Assembly: GCA_030054735.1 (NCBI GenBank)
Contig: JASGVX010000121.1
Span: 1 to 46,711, forward strand
DNA: 46,711 nt
Direction: 5' to 3'
Origin: Methanobacteriota archaeon
GTDB taxonomy: Archaea > Halobacteriota > Methanosarcinia > Methanosarcinales > Methanosarcinaceae
In this document: piece after piece, positions 6,623 through 40,435 of the stretch
Numbering within the stretch: the first letter of the stretch is position 1
Layout of the letters: every line of letters begins with the position of its first letter
Notes under the pieces: generated by a model
What the model was told of the DNA's origin: nothing
Databases searched by the model: none
The model's input: only the letters and a program-made list of their open reading frames with translations
Position numbers and translations under genes: made by a program

Positions 6623-8062
6623 TCACTTAAGGGTCAGGATCTTGAGCATATTTGTACCTCCGGGTTTCCCAAAAGATGGGCCCTGGGTAAAGACTACTAT
6701 ATCTTCACTCTTCGCAAATCCCAGTTCTTTTACTTTTTTTATTGTTTCCTCTTCCCAGCTTTCAAAAGGTTCATTTGCAAGAACAGGATAGACTCCATAA
6801 GATAGGGAAAGGAACCTGCAGGTCTTGGGGACGCGGCTGAAAGCCAGTATCCAGGGCTCAGGGTTAAAACGTGAGATCCTGCGAGGAGTTGCTCCGCTTC
6901 TTGTAGGACTAAGTATGGCTGCAACAGGCAGTTTTTGCAGGGCTTCATGGACCTGAAGGGTGATCACTTCGTCCACTGACATTTTTCTGGCAGTTACAGC
7001 TTTGATCATTGTATCAAGCCCCCACTTAGTCTTGGTGCGCCAGTTCTCAGTAGTCTTTGAAATTTTTACCATCATCTCAACGGCTTCTTGAGGGTAATTC
7101 CCAACTGCGGTCTCTTCCGAGAGCATGATAGCATCTGTTCCATCAAGAATTGCGTTTGCAACATCTGTGGCTTCGGCCCGTGTGGGCCTTATATTATCAG
7201 TCATGGAAGCCAGCATATGGGTTGCGGTAATTACAGGAATTCCCAGGAGCTTTGACCTATGTATCAGTTCCTTCTGGACTGAGGGAACTTCCTGGATAGG
7301 AATCTCAACCCCCAGGTCTCCTCTTGCGACCATGAGAGCATCGGTTTCTTCAAGAATTTCTTCAATATTCTCTACAGCTTGTCTGCGTTCGATTTTTGAG
7401 ACAATGTATACCTGCTTTCCTCTGGATGCTGCAAAGTCTCGGACCTTTCTTATATCTTCGGCATTTTCAATAAAAGAGATACTGAAGGTATCAATATCCT
7501 CTTCCAGGGCAAACTCAAGGATTTTGAAGTCCTTTTCAGTTACGGGATCAAGGAAAATTTTCGCTCCCGGCAGGTTTAACCCCTTATGGGAATAGAGCTG
7601 CCCCCCAATAAGAACCTCACAGAGCACATCTGTTCCCAGGACTTCCTTGCATTGGAGCTGTATGAACCCATCGCTGAGGTAGATCAGGCTCCCGGGAGAT
7701 ACGCTTTCAGGAAGTTGTTTGTAACTTACAGAAATCCGCTTCTCATTTCCAGGAGAGTCGTTAATTGTAAGGGTTATAAGATTTCCTTTATGGAGCATGA
7801 TAGGTTCTTTTTCGAGCTTGCCTATGCGGATTTTCGGGCCCGGAAGGTCTCCAAGGATTGCAATAGTCCTGCCCAGTTCGTCTGCAACCTTGCGGACGTT
7901 TCGGATAACTCTGACATGGCTTTCGAAGCTTCCATGTGAGAAGTTAATCCTTGCCACGTTCATGCCAGCAAGTATAAGCTGCCTGATCATCTCTTCAGAG
8001 GAGGATGCAGGTCCTATTGTACAGACGATCTTTGTTTTATGGTCAGGAATTTCCATATTCAC
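6623..8062 (-). CDS. pyk: Pyruvate kinase
   Basis: 479 aa. Transfers phosphate from phosphoenolpyruvate to ADP, forming pyruvate and ATP. Visible family features: N-terminal TKIVCTIGPASSSEE, the (beta/alpha)8 barrel with NFSHG, the active-site signature SKIERRQAVENI (around residues 222-233), the metal-binding MVARGDLGVEIP, the TRAEATDVANAILDGTDAIM block, and a C-terminal domain ending GGTNMLKIL. The length matches single-domain-set archaeal enzymes with no extra PEP-utiliser domain. Start is GTG 8062 or ATG 8056; aggg lies six bases before the GTG. It lies 115 bp downstream of the aldolase gene on the same strand, so the two glycolytic genes may share a transcript. Confidence 0.95.
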   Translation of the reverse strand: MNMEIPDHKTKIVCTIGPASSSEEMIRQLILAGMNVARINFSHGSFESHVRVIRNVRKVADELGRTIAILGDLPGPKIRIGKLEKEPIMLHKGNLITLTINDSPGNEKRISVSYKQLPESVSPGSLIYLSDGFIQLQCKEVLGTDVLCEVLIGGQLYSHKGLNLPGAKIFLDPVTEKDFKILEFALEEDIDTFSISFIENAEDIRKVRDFAASRGKQVYIVSKIERRQAVENIEEILEETDALMVARGDLGVEIPIQEVPSVQKELIHRSKLLGIPVITATHMLASMTDNIRPTRAEATDVANAILDGTDAIMLSEETAVGNYPQEAVEMMVKISKTTENWRTKTKWGLDTMIKAVTARKMSVDEVITLQVHEALQKLPVAAILSPTRSGATPRRISRFNPEPWILAFSRVPKTCRFLSLSYGVYPVLANEPFESWEEETIKKVKELGFAKSEDIVVFTQGPSFGKPGGTNMLKILTLK

Positions 8063-8177
8063 ACAGCCCTATATATTTCTCTGCTTCAGTCCTTTTCATT
8101 TACTTTTTAAATGAATTTCAAATTTCTTTCTGCCGTTCCAGTGAATTCCTGTCTCAACTTTTTTGTAAACTCTCTTC

Positions 8178-9101
8178 TTATTTTCCCCTGTAAATTTTAA
8201 GGGCTTCTTCAACGCTTGCATCTTCAACAGTTATGGCGTAAACAGCATTGCACATGCGGACAGCTTCATCCAGAGGCTTCTGGTGGATATTTCTTCCGGT
8301 TGCATTCCCCTGGGCCCCGGAAACATGGATCTGGTCGTGGAGCTTTTTGAGGAAAGCTTCGGCTTCGTCGCTTGAGCCGCCAGCACAAACTACTTTTGTC
8401 CGCCCGGCTGCTTTGACAGCCTCCTTGAAAATCTCGGCAGATTTTTCTCCTTCTTTCTTCGGATAGTTTACCTTTACAAAGTCCGATCCAAGAGTGGCCC
8501 CAACTCCAGTTGCCCCTGCAATAAGGTGAGGGTCCTTTTCGTCTTTTACGGCAGTTCCGCGAGGGTAAATCCAGAGTACGGACATCATTCCATGCTGGTG
8601 TGCACCATAAACGACCTGGGCAGCCTGCACAAGCATTTCGGCTTCAAACTCGCTGCCAATATATATTGTATAGCCAACACCAAGGATATTGAGCCCGCTG
8701 TTCTCCTTAAACTCGGCTACCTGGTCAATATCATACCACAGGTTGCTGAAAGGATCAGCCTGTGCGGTTTCAACCAGGTTGGTCTTGGAGTTTACCTTTA
8801 CAAGATAAGGAATATCTTTATAGTCCATTCCATAGCGGGCAATAAGCCCGAGCTGGGTTGCAAAAACTCCTATTTTTGACTTAGCTGCAATCCTGAAAAG
8901 GTGTTCAGGGTCGGCGTCATCTTCAGGAATCCCTTCTCCAAAAAAGTCATCGTTCAGGTGTTCTACTTTCTGGTCTCCGGCAAAAAGCATTAACCTGCCG
9001 CTACCCTTTGTGATTTCCATGTAGTTTTTTACGTATGTCTCACGCATTGCTTTCGGGACATCTAAAGGTACGATTACGTCTTCTTTTTTAATTGAAACCA
9101 T
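8178..9101 (-). CDS. Archaeal class I fructose-bisphosphate aldolase (DhnA/DeoC-LacD type)
   Basis: 307 aa from ATG 9101, chosen because GAGGT sits eight bases upstream; a longer frame to 9116 lacks this. A (beta/alpha)8 Schiff-base aldolase of the archaeal FbaA/DhnA family: LMLFAGDQKVEH near the N-terminus, IYPRG, the Lys of FVKVNYPKK (probable Schiff-base residue), and the phosphate-binding VVCAGGSS and HVSGAQGNATGRNI blocks. It would condense dihydroxyacetone phosphate and glyceraldehyde 3-phosphate in gluconeogenesis, or cleave fructose 1,6-bisphosphate. Related proteins (ADH synthase of the aroA' pathway, LsrF) share the fold, so the exact reaction is inferred. Pairs with pyruvate kinase just downstream. 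9117-9189 contains a ttaatata TATA-like element. Confidence 0.82.
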   Translation of the reverse strand: MVSIKKEDVIVPLDVPKAMRETYVKNYMEITKGSGRLMLFAGDQKVEHLNDDFFGEGIPEDDADPEHLFRIAAKSKIGVFATQLGLIARYGMDYKDIPYLVKVNSKTNLVETAQADPFSNLWYDIDQVAEFKENSGLNILGVGYTIYIGSEFEAEMLVQAAQVVYGAHQHGMMSVLWIYPRGTAVKDEKDPHLIAGATGVGATLGSDFVKVNYPKKEGEKSAEIFKEAVKAAGRTKVVCAGGSSDEAEAFLKKLHDQIHVSGAQGNATGRNIHQKPLDEAVRMCNAVYAITVEDASVEEALKIYRGK

Positions 9102-9189
9102 GTGTATAAACCTCATTTATACTCTTCTACTATATTAAATAAGGTATTGGTAAATAAATACTGATATTTATGGGGAAGTATATTTCTTC

Positions 9190-9848
9190 ATGAACTGTCC
9201 ACGATGTAAGAGTTCCAGTTATAGTAAGAACGGTAAATTTTATGGACGTCAACGCTACAAATGTCAAGATTGTGGATATAACTATTCTGTAGAACTAAAA
9301 TCAACTGCGTTTTCCACTTTTGTTAAAAGACAGGCTTTGCAACTTTATCTAGAATGATTAGGATTCCGTTCAATAGGACGATTTTTAGGAGTAAGTCATG
9401 TTTCTGTCCAAAGATGGATAAAGAAATTTGTTCAGGGGTTAAAGGCCCTAAAAAGCGAAAATGAAATCTCTGTCGTCGTTGTGGATGAGATGCACACTTA
9501 CATCGCTAACAAAAAAATACTGCTGGATGGATTGCTGTTGATAGAGTTGGGAAAAAGTTCATCAACTGCTCTTTTGGTAGCAGAGGAACGGAAAATAGAA
9601 AACTAATATGGGAAAAATCAAAGAAAAAAGAGATTGAACAAGTGATGACTGATCACTTTAGGGCATATGCAGAGTTTATTCCAAAAAAGATTCATACTCA
9701 ATCCAAAGCAGAAACATATACTGTTGAAGGATATAGATATGTGAGGATATTATCTTTGTATAAAAAAGTAAGAAAGTTGCTGAAGAATTCTACTGGAGAC
9801 CTCTCCTTTTTAAGGAATAAAAACTTGAAGTGGGCTGTTGCGATCTAA
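9190..9848 (+). pseudogene. Degenerate IS1-like transposase
   Basis: The start reads MNCPRCKS and YKCQDCGYNYSVE, the N-terminal zinc ribbon of IS1/InsA-type transposases, followed by a helix-turn-helix (RSIGRFLGVSHVSVQRWI) and VVDEMHTYI, the start of the DDE domain. An in-frame TGA interrupts the frame at 9355, a frameshift follows near 9520, and the tail (from 9642) is in a different frame and ends WAVAI. No intact inverted repeats could be identified, so this is a dead element. Confidence 0.85.
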
Positions 9849-9885: not shown

Positions 9886-10956
9886 TTAAATCCATCTTTT
9901 CTTCTTAAAGTAAAGGAACATGCTTATTCCTAATAATGCCATCCCAAGTAGAACTGCAGGATAACCCCATCGCCATTCGAGTTCTGGCATGTAGTCAAAG
10001 TTCATGCCGTATACTCCTGCAATGAAAGTGAGTGGTATGAAAATCGTGGCAATGATTGTCAGAACTTTCATAATGTCATTCATCTTGTTACTCAGGCTTG
10101 AGAGGTAGACATCTACCATTGAAGAGAGAATGTCCCTGAAGGCTTCTATGGAGTCAATGATCTGAATGGTATGGTCATATACATCTCTCAGGTAGATCCG
10201 CGTGTTGTCCTTTATAAGTTCTGACTCAGTTCTCTGAAGGTTACTTATCAACTCCCTGAGGGGCCAGACTGATCTGCGGAAGGTGATCATATCTCTCTTA
10301 TATCTCTGGATCGTTTTCAGGGTTTCAGGTATTGGGGGCATTGCGAGTTTTTCTTCGAGATTTTCTATTTCTTCCTCAAAGTGTTCGAGAATCAAAAAAT
10401 AGTTGTCAACCACAGCATCCATCAGGCTGTATGCAAGAAGGTCCACACCGTTTTTTCTCAGTCGCGAAGAAGGGTTTTTGAGCCTTTCATGGACAGGCTC
10501 AAAAACATCTTCTTCCCTCTCCTGAAAAGTGAGGATATAATTGGAACCAATGATGATATTTACCTGATCTATAATCATCTTTTCTTTTATTTCATTAAGA
10601 AGAATCATTTTCAGAACAATATAAATATACTTCTCATAATCCTCCATTTTCGGGCGCTGTCCGGTGTTCAGCACATCTTCCAGGGTAAGAGGATGAACCC
10701 CAAAGTAGCTGCCAAGTTTTTCTATTACTTCAACCCGATCTAGTCCGTCCACATTTATCCACAGGTTCATGTCCGGCTGGTCTTTGAGGGACTGACATTC
10801 TTCTATGGTTTGAAGCTCTTTTTCAATCAGTTTCTCACTATTGTATATCCAGGCTCTGATTACGATTTTCTCTGCCTTTTTTTCTCCCACATGGACAAGA
10901 GTTCCGGGGGCAAGACCGACATTTGATTTCTTCTCTCTGAAAGTCTTCGGTTTCAC
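9886..10956 (-). CDS. corA: CorA-family magnesium/cobalt transporter
   Basis: 356 aa. Long cytoplasmic N-terminal domain, a helical stalk (residues about 170-290), and two C-terminal transmembrane helices joined by the signature YGMNF loop (VLTIIATIFIPLTFIAGVYG, then AVLLGMALLGISMFLYF). CorA pentamers carry Mg2+ (also Co2+ and Ni2+) across the cytoplasmic membrane. The end KKKRWI supplies positive charges on the cytoplasmic side. Start is GTG 10956 with gagg eight bases upstream. Single gene; 10957-11198 is AT-rich promoter DNA with no other feature. Confidence 0.95.
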   Translation of the reverse strand: MKPKTFREKKSNVGLAPGTLVHVGEKKAEKIVIRAWIYNSEKLIEKELQTIEECQSLKDQPDMNLWINVDGLDRVEVIEKLGSYFGVHPLTLEDVLNTGQRPKMEDYEKYIYIVLKMILLNEIKEKMIIDQVNIIIGSNYILTFQEREEDVFEPVHERLKNPSSRLRKNGVDLLAYSLMDAVVDNYFLILEHFEEEIENLEEKLAMPPIPETLKTIQRYKRDMITFRRSVWPLRELISNLQRTESELIKDNTRIYLRDVYDHTIQIIDSIEAFRDILSSMVDVYLSSLSNKMNDIMKVLTIIATIFIPLTFIAGVYGMNFDYMPELEWRWGYPAVLLGMALLGISMFLYFKKKRWI

Positions 10957-24236: not shown

Positions 24237-24587
24237 TCAGGCATCTTCATTAAGGTCTTTGATAATTTTCATGACCACTTTTTTGAGAGTTGGAATGTCT
24301 TCTTCAATAACAGCCCATACAGAATCAATGTCTACTCCAAAGTAGTTGTGAACCAGCTTATCCTTCATCCCAGCAATTCCTCTCCAGGGAACATGGGGGT
24401 ATTTTACTCTCAGGGAACTGGACAGGTTTTTAGCAGCTTCACCGATGATCTGAATTTGCCTGATAGTTCCGTCCTGAACAAGGTTATTTGATTGGAAGTC
24501 TTTTTCGGAAAGACCCAGTGTGTACGCTTCGATAAAAGAGATGGCTTTCAAGATGTGAATAAGGTATACAGTGTCATCTCTTTTCAT
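24237..24587 (-). CDS. hepT: HepT-like HEPN ribonuclease toxin (DUF86)
   Basis: 116 aa, the normal size. Helical HEPN protein: IGEAAKNLSSSLR helix, WRGIAGMKDKLVHNYFGVD, and a C-terminal acidic helix. The HEPN active motif R-x4-H-x-Y appears as KDKLVHNY, with Lys in place of the usual Arg. HepT cleaves RNA, or is silenced when its partner MntA AMPylates the motif Tyr. ATG 24587 overlaps the mntA stop by four bases (ATGA), the usual two-gene arrangement. The pair is bracketed by direct repeats. Confidence 0.87.
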   Translation of the reverse strand: MKRDDTVYLIHILKAISFIEAYTLGLSEKDFQSNNLVQDGTIRQIQIIGEAAKNLSSSLRVKYPHVPWRGIAGMKDKLVHNYFGVDIDSVWAVIEEDIPTLKKVVMKIIKDLNEDA

Positions 24588-24934
24588 TCAGAGATCACTC
24601 TGGCTTCTTTTTTTATTCCATCAATCAGGTAAGGACTTATAGATTTTTCAGTAAGCAAATCGACTTTTATGCCCAGATAATCAGAAAGCTCCAGCTCAAT
24701 ATTTACCAGGGTAAGCAAACTCTTCCGCTCGGCAAACTCAACCAAAACATCAATATCACTTCCCGGTTTTTCTTCTCCCCGCACATAAGACCCAAAAATG
24801 GCTACTTTTGTGGCTCCAAATTTTTCCAGAAATGATGCAATTTTGCTAAAAAGCTCTTCCTTTTCTTCCATGGTGAGCATGTTGATATATCTCAGTTTGT
24901 TCAATTTAAAACTATCCTTGAAAACCCTATACAT
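24584..24934 (-). CDS. mntA: MntA-type nucleotidyltransferase antitoxin
   Basis: 116 aa from ATG 24934, which has GGAGGT and ggag upstream; a longer frame to TTG 24979 is also open, and a shorter start at ATG 24880 is closer to typical family length. Minimal nucleotidyltransferase: GSYVRGEEKPGSDIDVLVEF carries the GS-x10-D-x-D catalytic motif. MntA neutralises HepT by transferring AMP to its active-site tyrosine. Translationally coupled to hepT. Confidence 0.87.
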   Translation of the reverse strand: MYRVFKDSFKLNKLRYINMLTMEEKEELFSKIASFLEKFGATKVAIFGSYVRGEEKPGSDIDVLVEFAERKSLLTLVNIELELSDYLGIKVDLLTEKSISPYLIDGIKKEARVISE

Positions 24935-25797
24935 GAAACTCCGTACCTCCAGGAGGGCAGTATTTTTATGACTTTTCAATAATATTTGCTACTACAATCC
25001 TTTTAATCTTCTGAAGCAAGCTGGGGAAGATTCAAGCAAACTCACTACCAAAAATCCTTTATAAATCACGGATAAACACAGATGAATACAGATGGTTTTG
25101 ATTCCTGATCATCCGTGTGAATCCGCGTCCATCCATGGTTCTTTTATAAAAACCTCTTTAACCATTCCTGATTCCCAACTCTATTTCGTCTTCCTTTCAT
25201 CCCCTAATATTTTGAAATAGAAACAGGCTAGATTGAAACGCCCGCAGCCCCATGGACCCCTGTATACTATCCCCTTAGCTGATACATACCCTCCCCTTCA
25301 GGAAACCCTAACTTTTTTTGACCAATTCCTCAGAGAGTTTTAATCATTTTTATAAAACTCACCGGGACACTGCAAAACTTTCTAACGATATTGAAAAACA
25401 GAGAACAAGAATAAAACCTTCTTTTTGAAGGTCGACATTAAAAATCAGAACATTTTTCTTGATGTTGTTTTATACTATCCACTGGCTAGAAATGAGATTG
25501 AAAGTTGGTTAACATGTGGCTCAATTATCACCACATATATATATACTGGATCATTTTTTCCTAAAAGTTTAGGATGAGATATTATTAATTGATCATATGT
25601 AAACCTAAAAGTTTCGTACAAATACTATGTATTATTTTAAAATCGGCATCAACAAAAATTTTGAAAATCAAATATCCAACTGCCGAAAGGAGCTGATTAT
25701 GATGCCTCCAATAATAATAGATTCAAGATTATATAAAACTAAGTCAATGAATTGGAGACACGACCCGAAATAAAAAGGAATAATTAATAGAAAGGAT
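24935..25797. other. Intergenic region with right direct repeat
   Basis: 863 bases without a gene. 25032-25259 is the right-hand direct repeat; the remainder (25260-25797) is AT-rich, contains aaacctaaaagttt-like short repeats near 25565 and 25605, and shows no coding signal that I recognise. Confidence 0.5.
25032..25259. repeat. Right direct repeat flanking the HepT/MntA module
   Basis: Starts tcaagcaaactcact and ends agccccatggacccc; same block order as 23889-24118. It contains the cacggataaacacagatg repeat (about 25067-25122), nearly identical there to copy A at 23422. Confidence 0.72.
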
Positions 25798-28299: not shown

Positions 28300-28640
28300 T
28301 GTAGCCGGCTTTCCGAAGATGTCTTTCAATTTTTCATATTTTTTTCTGCTATCGTTTTTTTGAAATACCCCGAGTTAGTTAAAAATGTATTTTCGAAATT
28401 TCCCGAATTTTTCGACCTTTTGCCTTCATTGGAATACTTTCTATTTCCATTCATTTTCATTCTGCAATAGAATAAATCATTAAGCAGAGAAGTATTATCA
28501 TCGTCAGTGCTTTAATTCTGCTTTTGCTCTTGAGATAGACTTTCAATATGCTAAATGTATCACTTTTCAAAAATCTGATTCCTTTTTCCACATTGTCCTG
28601 TTTTATAATACTTCAGAATCTCTTCAGGAGAAAGAATGAT
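28300..28640 (-). pseudogene. Relic of an IS1634/IS4-type transposase C-terminus
   Basis: Minus-strand frames read SPEEILKYYKTGQ, then, after a frameshift, DNVEKGIRFLKSDTFSILK and VYLKSKSRIKALTMIILLCL followed by MIYSIAE and a stop (28457). This is the recognisable end of IS1634-type DDE transposases (VEKGFRFLK...VYLK...R.EAL..I..LCL). Further stops and frameshifts follow down to about 28300. Confidence 0.68.
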
Positions 28641-28689
28641 ATCTTTACTCGCAAGAATGAAAAAACCCATTTTCTCAGGCTGTCTCAAA

Positions 28690-28972
28690 AATCTTATGCG
28701 TAAAGACACAGATCCGGCATCCATAGAAAAAAATTATTCGAAACAAGTTTTATGACTTCATGAAGGAAAGAGATCTTTATTTTGTCATGGGAACTCATTT
28801 CCGCTTCAAGACCAGGATGATTATTGGGATTTTTTACTTTAAGAAGAAAGATGAGAAGCAGATGGAGCTTTTTGATTTTTAAAATGCTCTCATTTATCTT
28901 TTCTTCTCGCCCTTCCCAGTCTCTTTCTTTATCCTCTCTATCAAAACCTCAGTAGTCTCATAATCCTTGCCG
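28690..28972. repeat. Partial duplicate of the 252-aa gene end and hsdS end (left copy)
   Basis: Collinear with 30660-30944 at roughly 85-90 percent identity: both contain ttttatgacttcatgaagga, gattattgggattttttact and ctttatcctctctatcaaaa. The coding frame is broken here. It begins exactly where a MITE A-like terminus (caggctgtctcaaaa) stops. With the right copy it brackets the DUF488 gene and most of the 252-aa gene. Confidence 0.88.
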
Positions 28973-29175
28973 AACATACAAAAATTAATTTTAAAGTAAA
29001 GATTTATAGCTAGAGTGGAATTCTATTTAATAAACATAGGAATTTTTAATTCGTCTTCTCAACAACTGTGAAAATAGCTAATGAAAATATCTTAGAAAAT
29101 CATTAAATGGAAATCGTAGAAAATGATTTAATGGAAATATTTTGAAGATAAACACACTTGATAGACGGTAATTGA

Positions 29176-30039
29176 ATGAAAAATCTGAATCACAGACAAA
29201 GGGCTCTTCTTTACACCATAGATAAACTCCATGAGAGGGACTTAGCTTCAAGACTCATGATAGTGAAAAGCCTTTTTTTGTCATCTCATGTAGAAAAAAT
29301 AGACAGAGTAATTAAATTCTATCATTTTTTCCCTCATCACTACGGCCCTTTTTCCAATGTTTGTTATTCTGATATTTCCAGGTTAGAAAAAGAAGGATAT
29401 ATTATCAAAAAGGAAAAAAAGTTTGAATTAAGCGAAATAGGGAAAGAGGCTTTAAAAGGGATTGAGCCAAAGGCAAGTTTAAAAATAAACAGAGTTGTGA
29501 AGAAGTTTAATTCCGACAAAGAAATTATGGAATATGTATACAGAAAGTTTCCTGATTATACAATAAAAAGCAAACTACTAGCTTATCAGAATCTGAATAA
29601 GCGTGACCCTGGCCTTTTTACTGTAGGATACGAAGGAAGAGATATTGACCTTTTCCTTAATATCTTAATTAAAAACGATATAGATGTTCTTATTGACGTG
29701 AGGAAAAACCCTTTCAGCATGAAATTCGATTTCACAAAAAATATCCTTAAAAATTATCTCGAAAACTCAGATATTCAATATCTTCATGTCCCCGAGCTTG
29801 GTATAGAAGGGGAAAAAAGAAAAGGCCTTCTCACACTCAAAGATTACGAAAAACTTTTTGAGTACTACGAAAAAACGACAATAAGAGACAATCCCGAGCT
29901 TTTAGATAAAATTGCGGAATTAAGCCGGAGCCACCGTGTTGCTCTGATGTGTTTCGAAGCCGATGTAAATATGTGCCATCGTGGAGTTATTGCACGAAAT
30001 ATAGTTCAGAAAGAAAATGTGGAAGTATTAAATATCTGA
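29176..30039 (+). CDS. Winged-helix plus DUF488 protein
   Basis: 287 aa. Residues about 1-95 form a helix-turn-helix-like domain (RQRALLYTIDKL, YHFFPHHYGPFSNVCYSDIS, LEKEGYIIKK), similar in outline to Panacea-type or winged-helix modules. Residues about 148-287 are a DUF488 domain: TVGYEGRDIDLF, VLIDVRKNPFSMK, YLHVPELGIEG and the C-terminal CFEADVNMCHR, in which the Cys, Glu and His residues may form a catalytic or metal site. DUF488 proteins are of unknown function and common near defence genes. The next gene (55 bases downstream, same strand) is probably its partner. Function not established. Confidence 0.75.
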   Translation: MKNLNHRQRALLYTIDKLHERDLASRLMIVKSLFLSSHVEKIDRVIKFYHFFPHHYGPFSNVCYSDISRLEKEGYIIKKEKKFELSEIGKEALKGIEPKASLKINRVVKKFNSDKEIMEYVYRKFPDYTIKSKLLAYQNLNKRDPGLFTVGYEGRDIDLFLNILIKNDIDVLIDVRKNPFSMKFDFTKNILKNYLENSDIQYLHVPELGIEGEKRKGLLTLKDYEKLFEYYEKTTIRDNPELLDKIAELSRSHRVALMCFEADVNMCHRGVIARNIVQKENVEVLNI

Positions 30040-30093
30040 AACGCATAAAAGCAATCTAAAACTATTATTCTATTTTTTGGAGGTTTTTCCTGC

Positions 30094-30852
30094 TTGAAAC
30101 AGGAAACCGAGAAAATTGTGGTTCTGGTGAGGGCTACACCGGAAGAAAGTAAAAGGCATGGCTATCTCGTATGTGTTGCCGGAATAAATGAGAAGGGCGA
30201 ATTCAGGAGAGTTTATCCTTTCGAATTCAGCTATGGGGAAAAGCTAATCGATTTTAAGAAGAAAGACCGGATAGAAGTTGTCCTGACGGAGCCAGACAAC
30301 GATCAAAGAAGAGAAAGCAGAAAGCAAATCCGCTACAAGAACCTTCGTTCTCCTGTTGAGGACGAAGAGCTGAGAAATTTACTCCAGTTGAAAGTAAGTT
30401 CAATTGAAAAACTAACTGAAGAAAATGCAAGTCTTGGAGTAGTTAAGCCTGAACTTTTAGACGCAAAGATCAAAATAAACAGCACTGAAATATACGACAA
30501 GCAGCAGTATTTCAACCTGGTGGGCGACTATCTGGTCGAGAAAAGAGAAAAAGTCAAAATGCCTGTTGAATTGAGATATATTTTCAGGTGCAAAAATGAC
30601 CCCAGATGCAAAGGACATAAGATAATTCTACTTGACTGGGAACTTAACGAGCTTGCAAGAAATGTTATGCGGACAGATAAAGATCCGACATCCATAGAAA
30701 AAAAGATTCGAAGCAAGTTTTATGACTTCATGAAGGAAAGAGATCTTTATTTTGTGATGGGAACTCATTTCCTCTTCAAGACCTGGATGATTATTGGGAT
30801 TTTTTACTTTAAGAAGGAAGATAAGAAGCAGAAGGAGCTTTTTGATTTTTGA
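30094..30852 (+). CDS. Unknown protein paired with DUF488
   Basis: 252 aa. TTG 30094 start with GGAGG ten bases upstream. N-terminal strand VVLVRATPEESKRHGYLVCVAG, middle charged helices, and a conserved-looking C-terminal part FRCKNDPRCKGHKIILLDWE with C-x6-C-K-G-H (metal or nucleic-acid site possible) and a tail ending KKQKELFDF. I do not recognise a named family. Its end converges on hsdS (12 bases apart). The C-terminal 60 codons are duplicated in broken form at 28690-28972. Confidence 0.7.
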   Translation: MKQETEKIVVLVRATPEESKRHGYLVCVAGINEKGEFRRVYPFEFSYGEKLIDFKKKDRIEVVLTEPDNDQRRESRKQIRYKNLRSPVEDEELRNLLQLKVSSIEKLTEENASLGVVKPELLDAKIKINSTEIYDKQQYFNLVGDYLVEKREKVKMPVELRYIFRCKNDPRCKGHKIILLDWELNELARNVMRTDKDPTSIEKKIRSKFYDFMKERDLYFVMGTHFLFKTWMIIGIFYFKKEDKKQKELFDF

Positions 30853-30944
30853 AATGACCCTCACTTATCTTTTCTTCCCCTCCTTCCCTCTCTCTTTCTT
30901 TATCCTCTCTATCAAAACCTCCGCCGTCTCATAATCCCTGCCTT
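30660..30944. repeat. Right copy of the duplicated segment
   Basis: Spans the last 190 bases of the 252-aa gene, the 12-base gap and the first 80 bases (3' end) of hsdS. Intact coding on both strands, so this is the parent copy and 28690-28972 the relic. Confidence 0.88.
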
Positions 30945-32199
30945 CTCTTCTTGCAATCTCAGCCTCTGTTTCTACAAGTTGGCCGGAAAACGCCTTTGTA
31001 AGAATGGATTGCCTTAGTTTTTCAGTTTTTTCTCTTGACGCTGAAACTTTAGCTTCAACAGAGTCAGCAAAGGTAAAGAGAGCATCAACACGCCTGACTA
31101 TTTCTTCCTGTTCTATGATGGGTGGGAGAAAAATTGGCCATTCACGAACAATTTGATTTGTAAGATTGGGCTGTGCTCCTCCCTGACCTGCATCAATTAA
31201 ATCTTTTCGTTGTTGAAGCAGATAATAAAATAGGAATCGAGTATCAACAATGGTCTTATCTGGAATACAATTCGCACATGCTTGATTTGTTGCAGCATCA
31301 ATATTTAATATACCGAGCTTTCCAATTGTAGCACCATATAATGCGATAGAAATAGTTCCTGCTGGCAATAACTTGGCAGAGGAATTCTCCAATCCTTTTT
31401 TTGTGATTTTTTCTTCAGTATTAGTCACAATGCTATCATTTAAATCCCCACTTTTGACCCAATGGACATCTCCACCAAAGTACTCTTTATTTTTCCTTGA
31501 AGGCGTACCTCCAGTACTCCATTTTCCTATTTGGCTGAGTGTTGTATTTTTCCATTCATTTAAAATTTTATTCTCTTTTCTCCACTCCTCAGTTAATCTC
31601 CCATCACAAGCAACCGCAAGCACCGATTGCCTGAACTTCTTCAAAATCTCCAGCACCCTGTCAAGCTTCTCATTTGCTGCATCCAGACGGGCGAAAAGTG
31701 CTTCAATAGCTGAAACGATGCGGTGCTGTTCGGGGAGTGGAGGGAGGGGAATCTGGATCTCAGCAAGTTGTTTCTTTGGTACTCCTGAAATTGTAGTGCC
31801 TCGATTATTATATTTGAAGTCCTTTACAGCCACAGAGAGATAATATAAAACATAATCTGGAAATATCAAACTGGGATTTCCAATCAGAGCCTGCGAATCC
31901 TGACTGAAACATAATGGATAACTAGTCAAACAAATTTTTCCTAAACCAACCCTTGTAACGACGATTATGCTATTCTCTGGTACAATATTTGTTGAAGAAT
32001 TGTCAACGCCCAACTTTGTAACGAACTTTCTAGGTTGAATATCTTTTAAACCGTATATATCTGCACTTGAAATCCATGGAATACTACCATTCCAATACTC
32101 TTGATTTTTCGTGGAGGGTGTGCCGCCTCCAACCAGAGTATAAGATTCACCTACAGTAGTCCAAGCCCACCCTTCCGGCAGTTCACTCTTCTGCTGCAT
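30865..32199 (-). CDS. hsdS: Type I restriction-modification specificity subunit
   Basis: 444 aa. Two target-recognition domains: TRD1 from LPEGWAWTTVGESYTLVGGG and TRD2 from EWKNTTLSQIGKWSTGGTPS, each ended by a conserved helix (LPPLPEQHRIVSAIEALFAR and LPPIIEQEEIVRRVDALFTF) that sets the spacing between the two half-sites. The C-terminal tail is charged. TRD1 reads the first half of the bipartite site and TRD2 the second; the site cannot be read from sequence. ATG 32199 overlaps hsdM by 17 bases. Confidence 0.93.
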   Translation of the reverse strand: MQQKSELPEGWAWTTVGESYTLVGGGTPSTKNQEYWNGSIPWISSADIYGLKDIQPRKFVTKLGVDNSSTNIVPENSIIVVTRVGLGKICLTSYPLCFSQDSQALIGNPSLIFPDYVLYYLSVAVKDFKYNNRGTTISGVPKKQLAEIQIPLPPLPEQHRIVSAIEALFARLDAANEKLDRVLEILKKFRQSVLAVACDGRLTEEWRKENKILNEWKNTTLSQIGKWSTGGTPSRKNKEYFGGDVHWVKSGDLNDSIVTNTEEKITKKGLENSSAKLLPAGTISIALYGATIGKLGILNIDAATNQACANCIPDKTIVDTRFLFYYLLQQRKDLIDAGQGGAQPNLTNQIVREWPIFLPPIIEQEEIVRRVDALFTFADSVEAKVSASREKTEKLRQSILTKAFSGQLVETEAEIARREGRDYETAEVLIERIKKERGKEGKKR

Positions 32200-33607
32200 A
32201 CCCGTTCCCCATCATATCAAGAATAGCATTCAACTCAGCAAGCGCCGCTTCAAGCTCATCAATCGCCTCCGCAGCAAGTTCTTCAGGGTCGGGCAGGTCG
32301 TCGCTGTCGCTTAAGGAATCGTCCCTGAGCCACTTAAGAGAATCAATCTTGTAGCCGCAGGCTTTGAGTTCGGAGATATGGAAACTGCGCCAGCGCTCTT
32401 CCTGAGAGTCCTTTTCATCGCGTTTTGCCCTGCCGTTGGGGTCGGAGCCGAAACACTTTTCAAACTCAGCAAAATGTTCATTTGTAAGCGGGCGGTCTTT
32501 TTTCGTAATCTTCGGGACATTGGTCCGGCAGTCGTAGACCCAGGTACGCTCTGTGGGGATGCTTTTCGTGAAAAAAATCACATTGGTTTTCGTGCCCGGA
32601 GAATAGGGCGTAAAAGTGCCGTCCGGAAGGCGCAGGACCGTGTGCAGGTCGCAGTCTTCGCAGAGCACCTTGAAAACCTCTCCTGCCTGGTCGGCAAAAA
32701 GCACATTATCAGGGACTACAATTGCAGCTCGGCCTCCGGGCTTCAAAATGGTCATAACGTGCTGGATAAAATTGAGCTGCTTATTTGAAGTATCTATAAC
32801 AAAATCTTCCCTTCCAGGTGACTGGTTTGCACCTTTTGTCCCGAAAGGAGGGTTTGTGAGCACCACATCAAACCTCATCGAATCAGGGACTTCATAAATC
32901 GAATCTCCGAGCTTGATTACTGGCTCGATTCCATGAAGGTAGAGGTTCATAAGGGCAAGCCTGCGCGGGCGTTCCACAAGTTCCTGCCCGAAATATGTAC
33001 TGTAGCGGATTCTTTTTGCAAGGTCGCGGTCTAAAGCTCCGCCTCCCGTTACACTTTTCAGCCACTCAAAAGCGCAGACCAGAAAACCGGCAGTCCCGCA
33101 TGCAGGGTCCATAATTGAAAAATCGCGCTGCTTTCTGGGGTCAGGTTTTGTGCACCTCACAATCGTCTGGATCACAATCCTTGGCGTAAAATACTGTCCA
33201 GCACCTTTCTTTCCTTCACTTGCTGCTTTTTCCAGAAGGCCTTCAAAAGCCATTGCTTTGACATCAATATCAAGGGCTGTCCATTCAGTCTCATCAATAA
33301 GGGAAATGATCTTCTTGAGGCTAACAGGGTTATGAAAACGGGAAAGGGCTCCGGCAAAAATATCACCAAGTAGCTCTTCCTGCTTACCAAGTGTCCGAAG
33401 CGCATCATTATAATGCTCTGTAAGTTCGGTCCCTGACTTTTCTTTCAGGGACTGCCAGCCGCAGGCCTCAGGAAGTTTAATTTCCTTCTCGTCTGCCATT
33501 TTTAAAAAAAGCAGGTATGTAATTTGTTCGATATAATCTCCGTAATCGATACCTTCATGCCGTAAAGTATGGCAAAAACCCCATAACTTCTGTACAATAT
33601 CACTCAT
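32183..33607 (-). CDS. hsdM: Type I restriction-modification methyltransferase subunit
   Basis: 474 aa. N-terminal helical domain, then an N6-adenine methyltransferase: AGQYFTPRIVIQTIV, SAM site MDPACGTAGFLV (around residue 167), and catalytic NPPFG (around residue 252). The C-terminal helical part binds HsdS. Works as HsdM2-HsdS to methylate host DNA. ATG 33607 overlaps the hsdR stop by four bases. Confidence 0.95.
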   Translation of the reverse strand: MSDIVQKLWGFCHTLRHEGIDYGDYIEQITYLLFLKMADEKEIKLPEACGWQSLKEKSGTELTEHYNDALRTLGKQEELLGDIFAGALSRFHNPVSLKKIISLIDETEWTALDIDVKAMAFEGLLEKAASEGKKGAGQYFTPRIVIQTIVRCTKPDPRKQRDFSIMDPACGTAGFLVCAFEWLKSVTGGGALDRDLAKRIRYSTYFGQELVERPRRLALMNLYLHGIEPVIKLGDSIYEVPDSMRFDVVLTNPPFGTKGANQSPGREDFVIDTSNKQLNFIQHVMTILKPGGRAAIVVPDNVLFADQAGEVFKVLCEDCDLHTVLRLPDGTFTPYSPGTKTNVIFFTKSIPTERTWVYDCRTNVPKITKKDRPLTNEHFAEFEKCFGSDPNGRAKRDEKDSQEERWRSFHISELKACGYKIDSLKWLRDDSLSDSDDLPDPEELAAEAIDELEAALAELNAILDMMGNGYAAEE

Positions 33608-36285
33608 GCTGCAACTGCCCTGTTAAATTCTGAAATCAAAGTAGAAAGCTTGCCTTCAAAAACGCGGTTAGCTTTATCCCAGCCGCCGTAATCGGAAAAC
33701 ACGGGAATGCATTCAAAGTCCTCCTTGTCAATCGAGAGGTTTGCAACCAAATGCGACCTTATGCGCTCAAGCCATAAACGCTGGTCTGCTGTAAAATCTT
33801 TTCCCATAGTTACCCGCCCAAAAGCAAGGCTGACACGCTCTTCTGCCGTCAGGAGAGCTTCTTCTTTGCAGGCTGCGTGCTTTATCATCGAAATAATGTC
33901 TACAAGTGCCTTATTATATTTCTCTTTGTGTGCCCTCTGCAAATTCTCAATAGTAAACCGCTGCTGGGAAGACTCAAGTTTTTCTTTTAGCTCTCCAAGG
34001 ACATCCGTGTTCCAGTCCTGAGGGCGGTTAAGAAGAATGCCAATTGCAGCAATCTTCTCAGAATTCTCTTTTACAAAATCAGAAAAAATACTCAGATAAT
34101 CATCCGGCTTATACTCTTTTCCGGCCGCATCCCTCACTATCCATGTAGATGAAACCACATCCCTGACTGCATAATCCACAAAGAAATCCTTTTTCGGTCT
34201 GGGGTAATTCTCAAGCAGGTTCAAAAAGTCAGGATCTCTCAGAATTTCCATAGTTTCTGTAAAATCATCTGAAATCCGCCTTTCAAGAGAGACTGCAAAA
34301 CGGTTCAGGTCACCTTTTTCCACAAAAGCACTGAACATGTCCCTGGCTTCTCCGCTCATTTCCTTATCGATTCTGTTAAGCCTTTTCGTCAGTACACGCA
34401 CATTATAAGCCCTGTCCCGGTTATTCCATATATCCTCAATAACCTTCTTTATCGGCTTAACTTCCTTTCTGGGCGGCTCGGCTGTCACACCGGTAACCCC
34501 TTTGAAATAATCGATAAGTGTCCCGCCAAAGCAGTCAAAAACAACAAAATGAGACTTTTCCGGGTAATGTTCCCCTTTGCGCGTACCGCGCCCTACCATC
34601 TGTTCAAAAAGGATGCGGGACTTCACAGCCCTCAAAAACACAATATACTCAATGTCCGGCACGTCAACTCCAGTAGATAGAAGGTCAACCGTTACTGCAA
34701 TCCCCGGATTTTTTCTGTTTCTGAACTCCCTGATCCTCTGCAACGGCCGGTCAACTTTGCCTGTAATCTTCTGTACAAACGAATCTCCTCTGCTAAAAAT
34801 ATCCCTTGCCAGATCAACTATCTGGTCAGCATGAGACGAAGAATTTGGAAGGTCCTGAACAGCAAATATCAGTGTCTTTGGAAAGCGCCCATATTTTTCT
34901 TCATGCTCGTCAGCATAACGCTTGATCTCCTGAATGATTTTCCTGTTAGAATCAATATTCGTGATTTCTCTTTCTATCTTCTCAGATGAGAATTCACGTT
35001 CGTCTTCAAGCATGTCTATTTTGCTTTGCCCTGTTTCGGAATCTATAACCCCTACCATTTCCCCTTCACGAAGAAATATTCCATCCATGCGGACGCTTGA
35101 CTCCAGTGCAACAATATCATAGTCAACCAGATATCCATCTCTAACAGCCTGTTCATAACCATACTTATAAACGATATCTTTAAAATATGCAGACGTGTGA
35201 GCAGCAGGCGTTGCCGTAAGCCCTACTTTTATAGCATCAAAATGGTCAAGCGTGTTTCTCCAGACCGAAACTTCCTGTGCGGAATAACCCCTGTGGCATT
35301 CGTCTGCTATTATAAGGTCAAAAGCATGAATTGGAATATCAAGCTGCCCTGCATCTTCATCCTCAGGCTCTTCGCAGCATGAATATTCAGAAGCTTTTCC
35401 GAAAAGGTTAATGGTCATCCGCTGAATTGTGGACACATATACAAAACTGTGCTCTGGCTTTGGGTCTCTAAGGTAGGCTTCAGGGATCAAATTTGAATCG
35501 AAAATTTCATTTTCATCCATATCGCCTCTTTGAAAGCGCTGGCTGTAAACCTCATATGTTTTATCAAATTTCAGCCCCTGTTCTGTTTCAAATGAAGAAA
35601 AAGCCCTGACCGCCTGAGCAGCAAGCGCTCTTCTGTCAACAAGAAAGAGGACTCTTTTTGCAACCCCTGCTTTCATCAAGCGGTAAATAAGATTGACAAT
35701 CGTAAATGTCTTTCCGGTCCCGGTAGCCATTGCGACCAGCATTGTTCGTTTCCTATCAGCAATAGCCCTCCCTATGGCAGCACAGGCTTCACGCTGATAT
35801 GGTCTCATTCTTGTATTATCAGGGATATTAAAAAATGCGCTACTTCTATCTTCAAGGTCAAAATTTAACTTTTCAATAAGAGCCTCAGGTGTGTGAAATC
35901 CGGATACTGGTCTCGAACGGCTGAGAGCAGGACGTACATCATGGTACCGGATATCTTTTCCGTTAGTGGAATATAAAAAAGGAACCCTGTATCCGTTAAA
36001 ATTAAAGGGATTATTTGAAAGCCCACATGAATACCTTTCCGCCTGTTTTAAAACACTTTGCGTACCAGACTCTTCTTTCTTTGCCTCAATAATTCCAAGG
36101 ATTTTTCCTCCTGCACAAAGCGCATAATCTGCAGGCCCATAATCAGTTGGATACTCTCTTATCGCACAATTATTGTAATTTTCTTGTCCTTTTGTCTTAT
36201 CGTAAGAAACGACATTCCACCCTGCAGCAGCTAGCATCGGATCTATTCGTTTTTTCCGTGTCTCAGATTCATTTAGCTTAACCAT
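33604..36285 (-). CDS. hsdR: Type I restriction enzyme, ATP-dependent motor/nuclease subunit
   Basis: 893 aa, first gene of the operon. N-terminal nuclease: DYGPADYAL followed by KILGIIEAKKE, the PD-(D/E)xK core. Two RecA domains: Walker A ATGTGKTFT (around residue 205), DECHRG (motif II), LTATPA (motif III), and QMVGRGTRKGE (motif VI). C-terminal helical region binds the HsdM/S core. EcoEI-like subgroup by overall layout. Operon order hsdR-hsdM-hsdS with overlapping ends means tight co-translation. All motifs are intact, so the system should be functional. Confidence 0.95.
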   Translation of the reverse strand: MVKLNESETRKKRIDPMLAAAGWNVVSYDKTKGQENYNNCAIREYPTDYGPADYALCAGGKILGIIEAKKEESGTQSVLKQAERYSCGLSNNPFNFNGYRVPFLYSTNGKDIRYHDVRPALSRSRPVSGFHTPEALIEKLNFDLEDRSSAFFNIPDNTRMRPYQREACAAIGRAIADRKRTMLVAMATGTGKTFTIVNLIYRLMKAGVAKRVLFLVDRRALAAQAVRAFSSFETEQGLKFDKTYEVYSQRFQRGDMDENEIFDSNLIPEAYLRDPKPEHSFVYVSTIQRMTINLFGKASEYSCCEEPEDEDAGQLDIPIHAFDLIIADECHRGYSAQEVSVWRNTLDHFDAIKVGLTATPAAHTSAYFKDIVYKYGYEQAVRDGYLVDYDIVALESSVRMDGIFLREGEMVGVIDSETGQSKIDMLEDEREFSSEKIEREITNIDSNRKIIQEIKRYADEHEEKYGRFPKTLIFAVQDLPNSSSHADQIVDLARDIFSRGDSFVQKITGKVDRPLQRIREFRNRKNPGIAVTVDLLSTGVDVPDIEYIVFLRAVKSRILFEQMVGRGTRKGEHYPEKSHFVVFDCFGGTLIDYFKGVTGVTAEPPRKEVKPIKKVIEDIWNNRDRAYNVRVLTKRLNRIDKEMSGEARDMFSAFVEKGDLNRFAVSLERRISDDFTETMEILRDPDFLNLLENYPRPKKDFFVDYAVRDVVSSTWIVRDAAGKEYKPDDYLSIFSDFVKENSEKIAAIGILLNRPQDWNTDVLGELKEKLESSQQRFTIENLQRAHKEKYNKALVDIISMIKHAACKEEALLTAEERVSLAFGRVTMGKDFTADQRLWLERIRSHLVANLSIDKEDFECIPVFSDYGGWDKANRVFEGKLSTLISEFNRAVAA

Positions 36286-37413
36286 TGTGCATCATCATAA
36301 TTACTGGGCTTTTGTTATTTGATGGGCTTTTGTTATTTGATGGGCTTTTGTTATTGGAATTTAAACTTAATAACAGATCATATTTATTTGTATAAATAAG
36401 TTAGAGTTTTTTTTATTGAGATTAATATTACGATAATAATTTATTAAGTGGTAATTTAGGTTAAAATTTTCAGGTTAAAATTTATTCACAGAAAAGACTC
36501 TTCTCTAAATCCTGAATGGAAAAAGATGCCATTATAGATTTAATTCCTTCCAGCTCTTGACCCGCCCGACCAAAAAAGACCGCAAAATACCGAAATAGAA
36601 TTCAACATTTTCACTCCAGTCTTGAGAACCTTAAAATTTCATACATCAAAGCGGGTTTTCTTTTGATTAAATATGATATTTGTAGGGCAAACCTGAAAGG
36701 CTACACTATTTATACTATACATAGGCTCGCAGAAAGTGCAATAAGGTTTGGAAAGCTGTGAATTTTCTCATTTTGCCGGTGGTCACCGTCCTGTATAGGG
36801 GGTGGAAAGCCCGGAAACGAGAGAGTCTCTTCCTTAAGAGGCCCCAAACAACATAGTTCCAATAAACAGAGTACTGTCGAAATGATCAACGTTTTTAAAT
36901 AGAGACTCTTCTACGGCTGTGTCATTCCAGAGACCAGATTGACATCAATATTAAAATTGCATTACTTTATTGTTATCTGGTGAATTCCTGATGACTTGGT
37001 GTAAACACAATAAAATCATACATAACTTCTCCGTATTGAATGTGTCCACCAAAGTTTTTTTTCCGAAATATTCTGTGTTTTGCGGGTCAACAATACTGAT
37101 GTTCAAAAGTTCTGTTCTGTCTGTTCACTTGTTGAAAAATAAAAATTACCTTTTCATTTTCTGTGAACATGACACTATTGTCAATATCATTTGACAGCCC
37201 TATCAAAACACTTAAAAACTCTTCTCCTCTAATAGATCCTGCTACAAAAACAGAAAGTATCAAAAAATGAAAAAGTAAAGATAAAAGTATTTTTTGATAA
37301 AAGTATTTTTAATACATTACAACCTCTTTAAATACATTATAAGTTTCATAAGATATCATACATCACTTCAAATTAATTGTTTTCATACGAATAATCCATG
37401 GCGAGTGTTATAC
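36286..37413. other. Intergenic region upstream of hsdR
   Basis: 1.1 kb without a supported gene. 36305-36357 holds tandem repeats. On the minus strand around 36950-36850 fragments such as VEESLFKNVDHFDSTLF and NFNIDVNLVSGMTQP read like pieces of a decayed gene. A plus-strand ORF at 36970-37194 has a non-protein-like composition and was left out. Confidence 0.4.
36305..36357. repeat. Three 18-bp tandem repeats just upstream of hsdR
   Basis: tgggcttttgttatttga is repeated at 36305, 36323 and 36341 (last copy partial). The block starts 20 bases before the hsdR start codon, in its 5' leader or promoter, so a change in copy number could alter expression of the restriction operon. Confidence 0.85.
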
Positions 37414-37740
37414 ATGAAGGAATCTGTTAGAAAAATTGGGCTCTTAGGAGCTGGCCTCTGGGCAATGACTGAAGAAAAAGTAAATGAGCTTGTAAAAGAC
37501 CTGGTTGATAAAGGGGATATTAGCAAAGAAGAAGGCAAAAAAGCTGTTCAGGACCTTGTTGAAGAGAGTAAAAAACAGAGGGTTGACCTCGAAAAGAAAA
37601 TTAATGAAAAGATACAGGATGCCATATCAAAGGCAGATTTTTTTACAAGAAAAGATATGCATGAGCTTGAATCAAGATTAGAGATTCTGGAGGATGAGGT
37701 CCGGAAAATGAAAAATAAAGAAAAGATGTTCTTCAAATGA
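37414..37740 (+). CDS. Phasin-like coiled-coil protein
   Basis: 108 aa from ATG 37414 (the open frame upstream has no ribosome site and AT-rich noncoding composition). ESVRKIGLLGAGLWAMTEEK followed by VNELVKDLVDKGDISKEEGK and a long Lys/Glu coiled coil matches the PhaF/PhaI phasin-type family, small amphipathic proteins that coat polymer granules in bacteria. In Methanosarcina the role is unknown; a structural coiled-coil protein is the safe reading. Convergent with the lipoprotein gene at 37805. Confidence 0.75.
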   Translation: MKESVRKIGLLGAGLWAMTEEKVNELVKDLVDKGDISKEEGKKAVQDLVEESKKQRVDLEKKINEKIQDAISKADFFTRKDMHELESRLEILEDEVRKMKNKEKMFFK

Positions 37741-37804: not shown

Positions 37805-38068
37805 TTAGAGTTCTTCAATATCTATCTCTTCTTCAAGGCTTGAATTCACAAGCAGATCTTCAAGGCCTGCAATATTTTCATCAAACTCCTTAACATCTGC
37901 TTCTGTAAGCCCCTTATTGGCTGAATTATTTACAGAGGAATTTGAGGATTCAGTGGAATTTGAGGCTGGACCTTCATCTTTCTCATCAGTGTCATTTCCA
38001 ACGCAACCTGATACTGCAAGCCAGAATACTAAAAATGACATTACAATGAAATGTGTGAATTTTACCAT
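37805..38068 (-). CDS. Small lipoprotein, copy 1
   Basis: 87 aa from ATG 38068 (GGTGAGG six bases upstream). Signal sequence ending in the lipobox LAVSGC, then an acidic Ser/Asn-rich linker and a Glu/Leu helix (LLVNSSLEEEIDIEEL). Homologous to the lipoprotein at 39960-40226 (identical VGND after the Cys and similar C-terminal LLxN(S/A)S(L/V)EEEI). Lies 68 bases downstream of the secreted helical gene on the same strand. Confidence 0.8.
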   Translation of the reverse strand: MVKFTHFIVMSFLVFWLAVSGCVGNDTDEKDEGPASNSTESSNSSVNNSANKGLTEADVKEFDENIAGLEDLLVNSSLEEEIDIEEL

Positions 38069-38136
38069 TATTTTCCTCACCTTAACTCTTAAGTTTCTTT
38101 CTCAGAGGAATTCCTAGTCAAGTCATCAAGCGTCGT

Positions 38137-39123: not shown

Positions 39124-39959
39124 ATCACTTACTCCAATAAATTAATTAGTTATAATGTTACTGGGGCAGGAAACTATATAAATATATTTTTTATAAGAGT
39201 GATAATTAATTGATGGATATGAAATTTAAGGTTTGAAGTTTTTCTCCTCGCTATATAGCGTTTTATAAGCCATTATATTTTAAGAAATATTAAAATTAGA
39301 AGCAAAGCTTTTATTCTAAAAATCAATTTTTGTAAAGACTATTTAAAAAAGTAGATAATGATGTAGTTTATCATTTCTTCCTTTTTCACCCATATAATGG
39401 ATTCTTCCTTTTTCATCCAGATAATGAATTTAAGATGCAAAAAAGTCATCTATGATTCAGGAAGCCGTTAAATCTTTAGATTTATGGTAGTGTCATGGCA
39501 ATTTAATTTTTATATATTGTATTTGATATTATCCATTCAGATCATAAGGATTCAGAGCTTAATATGTGATCAATAATTAAACATTCTTGACAGTAGTTCA
39601 CGTAGTATAGGAACATTTTCAACCATTAGACAGGAGTTTAAAATTGTCATGAATGTTGCAGGTGATGGAGGATGAATTAAAGAAAGATAGCTTCAGCCCA
39701 ACAAGACGCAGAAGAATAACAGAAGATTTTGAGAAGACAAGAGTGAGAAAGAATATTTTTCAAGTTATTTATCTTCCAATCAAATTTATCTAATTTTACT
39801 TTTATTTTGTTTTTATCACTTCATGTTTTTATTCCAATTTCATCTCTTATTTTTTTCATCTTTTATTTTTTTTCATCTCTTATTTTTAGTCTCTTATTTT
39901 TTTGTCTCTTATTTTTTCATCTCTTCTCACTAATTTCAGTTTCTTTCACCGTTTTTCGC
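39124..39959. other. Intergenic region with low-complexity repeats
   Basis: 836 bases. 39841-39925 is a run of about five copies of a tcatctcttattttt-like 15-17 bp unit. A 46-codon ORF at 39653-39793 (MLQVMEDELKKDSFSPTRRRRI...) is polar and could be real but has no good ribosome site. The rest is AT-rich. Confidence 0.45.
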
Positions 39960-40226
39960 TCACTTTCGCAGCTCTTCAAGTAGTATTTCTTCCTCAACAC
40001 TTGCATTTTTCAGCAGGTTCTCAAGCTCAGCCAGGTCACCGTCAATTTCCTGAATTTCAGCAGGAGTTAGTCTCGCTCCTGAATCAGGGACTATATTCTC
40101 TGCCTCGGTAAGTTCAGGGGCGATTTCCGTCTCCTTTACTTCAGACGTATCATTTCCAACACAGCCGGACCCTGCAAGCCAGAAAATTAAAGTTGATAGT
40201 ACAAACAGATGAACGAATTTAACCAT
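39960..40226 (-). CDS. Small lipoprotein, copy 2
   Basis: 88 aa from ATG 40226 (GGAG eight bases upstream; the longer frame to 40271 lacks one). Lipobox LAGSGC, an acidic linker and a Leu/Glu helix. Paralogue of the lipoprotein at 37805-38068. Downstream partner of the secreted coiled-coil protein at 40436. Confidence 0.8.
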   Translation of the reverse strand: MVKFVHLFVLSTLIFWLAGSGCVGNDTSEVKETEIAPELTEAENIVPDSGARLTPAEIQEIDGDLAELENLLKNASVEEEILLEELRK

Positions 40227-40435
40227 TTTCTGTCTCCTTAGTTTAAAATCAGTCCACAGAGAAATTCTCAATTTTTTCTCCGGATGACGTTGTTTTTTCC
40301 CTTTGGGATAGAATTCATCTTGTTCACAGGAGTACCGTTTTTACATATAAATAATTAGTTAATATAGATAAATATTAATTTGTACTTGTAGTATTATTAT
40401 GTTTTGTTTTTGTGCTATTTTTTCCATAGATTTCA

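Follow-up and report, generated by a model that had tools for sequence, protein, structure and literature searches.

A DUF488 protein and a predicted tandem OB-fold partner form a conserved, candidate defence gene pair bracketed by hsdS tails in a Methanosarcina-like archaeon

Introduction

In a Methanosarcina-like archaeon, a winged-helix/DUF488 gene and the gene of a 252-aa partner lie side by side between two direct repeats and face a type I restriction-modification (RM) operon, hsdRMS. The locus raises the questions of what the two proteins do together, whether they depend upon the RM genes, and why an hsdS end lies on both sides of them. The first-pass annotation had taken the pair for a candidate defence or RM-accessory module. 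We searched for conserved pairs and their neighbours, predicted the structures of both proteins, and compared the bracketing repeats among genomes. The window denotes the whole stretch of DNA analysed (46,711 nucleotides); genomes and loci are identified by G and L numbers.

The pair itself is not new, being already catalogued as the PADLOC candidate defence system PDC-M19; the two window proteins match its components M19A and M19B, adjacent and in the expected order. The PDCs arose from a guilt-by-embedding screen and most await experimental validation (PMC12988326).

Results

The DUF488 gene (29176–30039, forward strand, 287 aa) and the partner gene (30094–30852, forward strand) are separated by 54 bp, and an SD-like “ggagg” precedes the partner's TTG start. 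Twelve bp separate the partner stop from the stop of the convergent hsdS (30865–32199, reverse strand; PF01420, 2.1e-55), whose 3' tail recurs as the boundary element; hsdM (32183–33607; PF02384, 1.3e-60) and hsdR (33604–36285; orthologues of 87–92% in G157, G172 and G160) lie on the same strand as hsdS, and the first-pass description of two co-oriented genes facing hsdRMS was borne out. A phasin-like gene (37294–37740, forward strand; 84–87% aa by tblastn) serves as a landmark for the equivalent chromosomal site in G157, G173, G149 and G158. Elsewhere in the window, an 18-bp unit (TATTTGATGGGCTTTTGT) is repeated three times in tandem just upstream of hsdR (36298–36358), imperfect pyrimidine-rich tandem repeats (TTTCATCTCTTATTTTT) occupy 39838–39917, and two small paralogous lipoproteins are encoded near the latter (37805–38080 and 39960–40271).

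Conserved DUF488–partner pairs were found across Archaea and Bacteria. A scan across 84,980 species, queried with a subset of closer sequences, yielded 45 partner loci, and DUF488 was located immediately upstream of the partner in 35 of these, frequently with a 4-bp overlap. The loci belong to Methanosarcinales, Thermoplasmatota, Archaeoglobi, Methanomicrobiales, Bathyarchaeota, Lokiarchaeota and several bacterial phyla; those lacking an upstream DUF488 were mostly Methanosarcina solo paralogues, truncated copies, a reversed-order Lokiarchaeon and one Thermoplasmatota locus. Adjacent genes in window order were present in G000, G149, G178, G152, G177, G154, G015 (twice), G099 and G018, and also in G034, G091, G067, G050, G036 and G180; presence was patchy (42 of 393 genomes). 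Divergence of DUF488 and partner was correlated (r = 0.69 versus a maximum of 0.19 in 2000 permutations), a value that includes shared species history. The linkage survives rearrangement, because the two genes were also found tail-to-tail on plasmids of Rhizobium, Burkholderia, Massilia, Pseudomonas, Arthrobacter, Streptomyces and Pseudochrobactrum, and in Gordonia phages between immunity repressor and integrase. The plasmid copies were often among metal-resistance genes, and megablast against plasmids gave no near copy. Neither gene strictly needs the other, since G157, G174 and G172 retain an intact DUF488 in the absence of the partner, and a conserved partner paralogue stands alone in most Methanosarcina. 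The contexts were mostly mobile or defence-like and not housekeeping alone, in keeping with the expectation of the first-pass annotation.

Several loci showed variants of the arrangement. In a Thermoplasmatota locus (L132, 1409–3171) a ParB_N + ASCH protein replaces DUF488 upstream of the partner, and a 190-aa ORF in L130 (7719–8291; the same as L091) joins a DUF488 N-terminal headpiece to the C-terminal part of the partner, as if produced by an internal deletion within the pair. On one Sulfolobales plasmid (L171, 3936–6352) a ParB-DUF488 protein, which carries a partition-protein annotation, is followed by a tandem-OB protein and a gene of about 165 aa; on another (L164, 5995–7355) the tandem-OB protein and the ~165-aa gene adjoin an integrase. 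A PD-(D/E)XK reading of this ~165-aa gene was discarded, the motif having been seen by eye alone with Pfam silent. A DUF488–partner fusion considered for L156 was likewise dropped, because a single ORF holds DUF488 and the matches to the partner fall downstream in different frames. In Gordonia phages Eviarto, Nymphadora and others (L162, 4977–6415), gp43/gp42 are an unannotated tail-to-tail tandem-OB and DUF488 pair.

The DUF488 protein matched PF04343 with 91.2 bits against a gathering score of 22.2 (E 9.5e-26) and PDC-M19A (PDLC04505) over residues 5–283 (1.9e-85); for the “active” DUF488-N3 subclade (PF22751) it scored 23.8 bits, below the gathering score of 27 that several of its relatives passed. 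Residues D174, R176, S181, Y202, R215, Y231, C259, E261, C267, H268 and R269 were invariant in 35 homologues, and the Cys/Glu/Cys-His-Arg active-site motif (C259, E261, C267, H268, R269) was intact in the window protein, which is under purifying selection (dN/dS 0.07–0.21). Its AlphaFold model (pLDDT 94.7) shows a winged helix and then a Rossmannoid domain, for which Foldseek returned weak matches to tetrapyrrole-methylase-like proteins and archaeal PTP phosphatases (best E 0.013), a weak indication of a PTP/methylase-like Rossmannoid fold. The headpiece varied among relatives (winged helix, MazE/AbrB, ParB_N + HTH_ParB, XRE, or none); the DNA-binding headpiece is swapped while DUF488 and partner stay. 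An archaeal ParB-DUF488-HTH fusion binds CTP (PMC12704722).

The partner matched PDC-M19B (PDLC04507) over its whole length (1–252 of 252; 1.2e-154), and Pfam had no family for it or for any of 18 homologues. Foldseek with its AlphaFold model (pLDDT 84) found RPA, HIN-200 (two OB folds), Teb1 and telomere-end proteins/TEBP (E 4e-4 to 1e-3, probability 0.85–1.0, TM-scores of just 0.2–0.4), and also baculovirus LEF-3 and a resemblance to CST; the models support a predicted tandem-OB fold, the low TM-scores backing the fold class and not a close relative, and the partner is predicted to bind single-stranded DNA. Structure prediction, as the first-pass annotation had advised, thus gave a Rossmannoid-like DUF488 protein and a tandem-OB-like partner. 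The same annotation had noted a C-x6-C-KGH site in the partner; the spacing is actually C-x5-C-KGH, and in 36 sequences C166 was conserved at 97% and H175 at 100%. The second Cys was not conserved, which leaves a zinc site or Zn-finger without support here. An ATCase-regulatory match (E 0.02) was at chance level, and solved structures searched by sequence with the profiles of both proteins gave no match. The partner is under purifying selection (dN/dS 0.07–0.13). Its solo paralogue, without DUF488, is widespread, syntenic and under purifying selection across Methanosarcina; this synteny and its nesting within the paired clade suggest a domesticated copy. The window's own genome has such a paralogue (50% aa, no DUF488) on contig C23 (L068, 8925–9740).

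Dependence upon RM genes was not general. Among 50 loci that carry both genes, 7 had an RM-type methylase no more than 10 kb away, compared with 1.5 expected (Poisson 0.001), a count made after the loci were seen and hence moderate evidence only. The clearest RM-linked loci were the window and L149, then L127, L107, L129 and L152 (helicase-PLD with Eco57I methylase), and L134; within L149 the pair is embedded in one type I RM operon in the order hsdR-DUF488-partner-hsdS-hsdM. The majority of pair loci had no RM neighbour, and in the PADLOC/Pfam neighbour tally RM genes were a minority and most neighbours were not recognised defence genes (the control tally around the solo paralogue gave 2 families in 38 neighbours). 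The orthologous hsdRMS operons of G157 and G160 hold other genes at the pair's site, which together with the many loci lacking an RM neighbour rules out an obligate type I RM accessory. The candidate defence or RM-linked module of the first-pass annotation stood, with co-conservation, PDC-M19, occasional RM embedding and RM enrichment in its favour; an obligate accessory role found no support. HEPN-MNT pairs adjoin DUF488–partner in L075 and L118. A HepT-like gene is also found immediately upstream of DUF488 in L118, and a HepT/MNT-type toxin-antitoxin pair occurs in the window at 24237–24979, 4 kb left of the relic described below. Cas12f matches near the pair were not accepted as CRISPR; they co-occur with IS605 (OrfB) transposase Pfam matches and are probably TnpB.

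The direct repeats lie in the same orientation at 28689–28971 (relic of the partner 3' end plus hsdS 3' tail) and 30660–30942 (partner end plus hsdS end), and align over 284 bp with 90.1% identity, far beyond chance; the bracketing by repeats of about 285 bp claimed earlier is real. The broken left copy is also as had been described, and consists of the last 51 codons and stop of the partner (28727–28882, forward strand, 84% aa) and about 25 codons of hsdS tail (28893–28971, reverse strand, aligned to the hsdS end). At its left edge is a 71-bp fragment (28606–28676) of a transposase gene (91% identity) whose 542-aa family is repeated in Methanosarcina; it aligns at 87–92% identity with elements present in many copies in G157, G150, G178 and G153. 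The first-pass annotation had read the relic as the trace of a second, related module, which its divergence contradicts: compared with the intact partner dS was 0.043 and dN 0.073, versus dS of 0.5–1.7 to copies in other genomes, so the relic is a recent local duplicate of the same cassette, decaying neutrally. Loss of the pair by one recombination, also suggested there, is possible between the repeats, but was not seen in the genomes examined; in G174 most of the partner was lost and DUF488 kept.

Outside the window, 3' tails of hsdS enclose the pair in G178, G152 and G174, the last of which retains only DUF488 as an intact gene; in G177/G154 they lie upstream of the pair. They bracket other cargo as well: HEPN-MNT (G149, G177), AAA_14-DUF4143 (G173), HepT-like c261 (G153) and the membrane proteins c255 and c267 (G151). 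At the orthologous operon of G157 an M48 peptidase separates hsdS from a further hsdS tail, and at that of G160 an OLD-TOPRIM ATPase/nuclease takes the pair's site. This G160 locus (L178) places the OLD-like AAA + TOPRIM protein at 7415–9715 beside the orthologous hsdS, and has a short hsdS-tail match at 10118–10162. It may be that such brackets are decayed tandem hsdS genes with chance insertions and no cassette exchange, an account that we hold to be not quite an even bet and that bears on the slot and not on the function of the pair. The tail copies begin at variable HsdS residues (359–420), several contain stops, and the cassettes examined had no recombinase and no fixed attachment site or unique breakpoint, all as decay would have it. 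Genus-wide, the window's hsdS subfamily gave about 27 tail-only copies versus 4 intact genes, whereas other HsdS subfamilies in the same search gave about 19 intact versus 4 partial (counts from open-frame length, with G177 and G154 being near-identical genomes); about 12 direct-repeat intervals hold differing, mostly complete cargo; and identical kinds of cargo turn up at more than one site (c261 95%, AAA_14 92%, c267 94–95%), all of which speaks against chance decay. The same is true of the site between the phasin gene and “MRQQD”, which has one tail in G158 and G167 and tail-AAA_14-tail in G173; in G177 it reads tail-HEPN/MNT-tail-DUF488/partner. The longest tail is the 5'-most (in hsdS direction) in most intervals, the pattern that entry of cargo at the 3' end of hsdS would give, with G177 contrary. 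The variable tail starts and the lack of a recombinase make homologous recombination likelier than site-specific insertion. Judged from these sequence comparisons, we tentatively suggest, with somewhat less than even confidence, that Methanosarcina keeps an array of interchangeable defence cassettes for which the 3' end of a single hsdS subfamily provides the boundary where homologous recombination takes place. The cargo may comprise DUF488–partner, HEPN-MNT, OLD-TOPRIM nuclease, AAA_14-DUF4143, HepT-like proteins, M48 peptidase and small membrane proteins; flanking direct tails might permit its gain, loss and duplication by crossing over, even with the RM genes gone.

Discussion

We give roughly even chances to the pair being a two-component, mobile, nucleic-acid-targeting conflict module (anti-virus or anti-plasmid) of PDC-M19 type carried in an hsdS-tail slot; its substrate, chemistry and antivirus function are inferred. 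The N-terminal headpiece would bring the DUF488 enzyme to DNA, and would probably autoregulate the operon too, while the tandem-OB partner would bind single-stranded or end DNA, such as that from type I RM translocation/cleavage or virus replication. DUF488, through C259-x-E261/C267-H268-R269 and D174-x-R176, might then carry out phosphate or sugar chemistry at DNA ends and so block invader repair or replication. Processing of DNA ends in conflict systems has reportedly been predicted for relatives of DUF488. The PADLOC match, the linkage, folds, headpiece swapping, plasmid and phage carriage, RM embedding and purifying selection support the conflict module, as does the defence-type nature of other hsdS-tail cargo (HEPN-MNT, OLD-TOPRIM, AAA_14-DUF4143, HepT-like). 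Against it are the many neighbours that are not recognised defence genes, the persistence of each gene without the other, and the plasmid copies near metal-resistance genes; the DUF488 fold matches are weak, and the proposed end-processing chemistry draws on general knowledge of the family.

The resemblance of the partner fold to RPA, CST and LEF-3 could instead indicate a factor for DNA repair, recombination or upkeep in mobile elements, in which an RPA/SSB-like partner and a DUF488 that trims ends serve the element or host. ParB headpieces on DUF488, the syntenic solo partner under purifying selection, and the occurrence of the pair on plasmids and in phage early/lysogeny regions near RecT-type genes and integrases agree with this, but the patchy presence, RM-operon embedding and co-residence with defence cargo do not, and we consider it unlikely. 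We also doubt a toxin-antitoxin-like selfish module, in which DUF488 would act as antitoxin or sensor under its own control and the partner as the toxic component (or the reverse), causing addiction or abortive infection. Two short adjoining mobile genes with HEPN-MNT neighbours, TA-like bracketing and antitoxin-type headpieces (MazE/AbrB, XRE; a weak SocA/Panacea match, E 0.02) would suit it; however, each gene occurs without the other, which is hard for a toxin and departs from strict pairing, the invariant catalytic residues of DUF488 imply an enzyme, and the partner, with its predicted OB fold, is double the size of a typical toxin. Control of hsdRMS transcription by the winged-helix protein, with DUF488/partner accessory, is very improbable: the headpiece, the convergence upon hsdS in the window and the position within the hsd operon of L149 would fit, but for the majority of copies there is no RM neighbour, and other genes occupy the site beside the orthologous hsdRMS of G157 and G160.

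For the conflict module, significance lies in DUF488 being a common domain without known function, to which the constant tandem-OB pairing across headpieces and two layouts gives a concrete candidate complex, and the pairing may point to DNA ends or single-stranded DNA as substrate. The window genes match PDC-M19A and PDC-M19B nearly full-length, adjacent and in order, but PADLOC offers no mechanism; added here are the folds, headpiece swapping, tail-to-tail variants, plasmid/phage carriage and the hsdS-tail bracket. The hsdS-tail-delimited slot with varying cargo in Methanosarcina may be new.

A RapZ-C/DUF488/DUF4326 clade is said to have been placed in the rhodanese-phosphatase superfamily (reportedly in NAR Genom Bioinform, 2023). 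The window DUF488 resembles it in its intact Cys-Glu/Cys-His-Arg residues and its PTP and tetrapyrrole-methylase-like Foldseek neighbours, but falls below the “active DUF488-N3” cut-off (23.8 versus 27 bits). Genes such as prrC or MADS-like genes sit embedded in type I RM operons, and L149 likewise has a non-RM candidate defence gene within or beside hsd genes; the pair proteins differ from these, and their embedding is occasional, not obligatory. Staphylococcal SCC elements at the rlmH 3' end and integron cassette arrays hold variable cargo at a repeated boundary. The hsdS-tail cassettes differ in being without ccr or integrase, and the repeats of the slot are long (about 50–200 bp), variable in length and hsdS-derived. 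In the slot, as in SCC and integrons, differing cargo lies between repeats of a gene's 3' end or of another boundary element, and if the hsdS-tail bracket is an exchange device, it would explain how defence genes gather beside archaeal type I RM operons without a recombinase.
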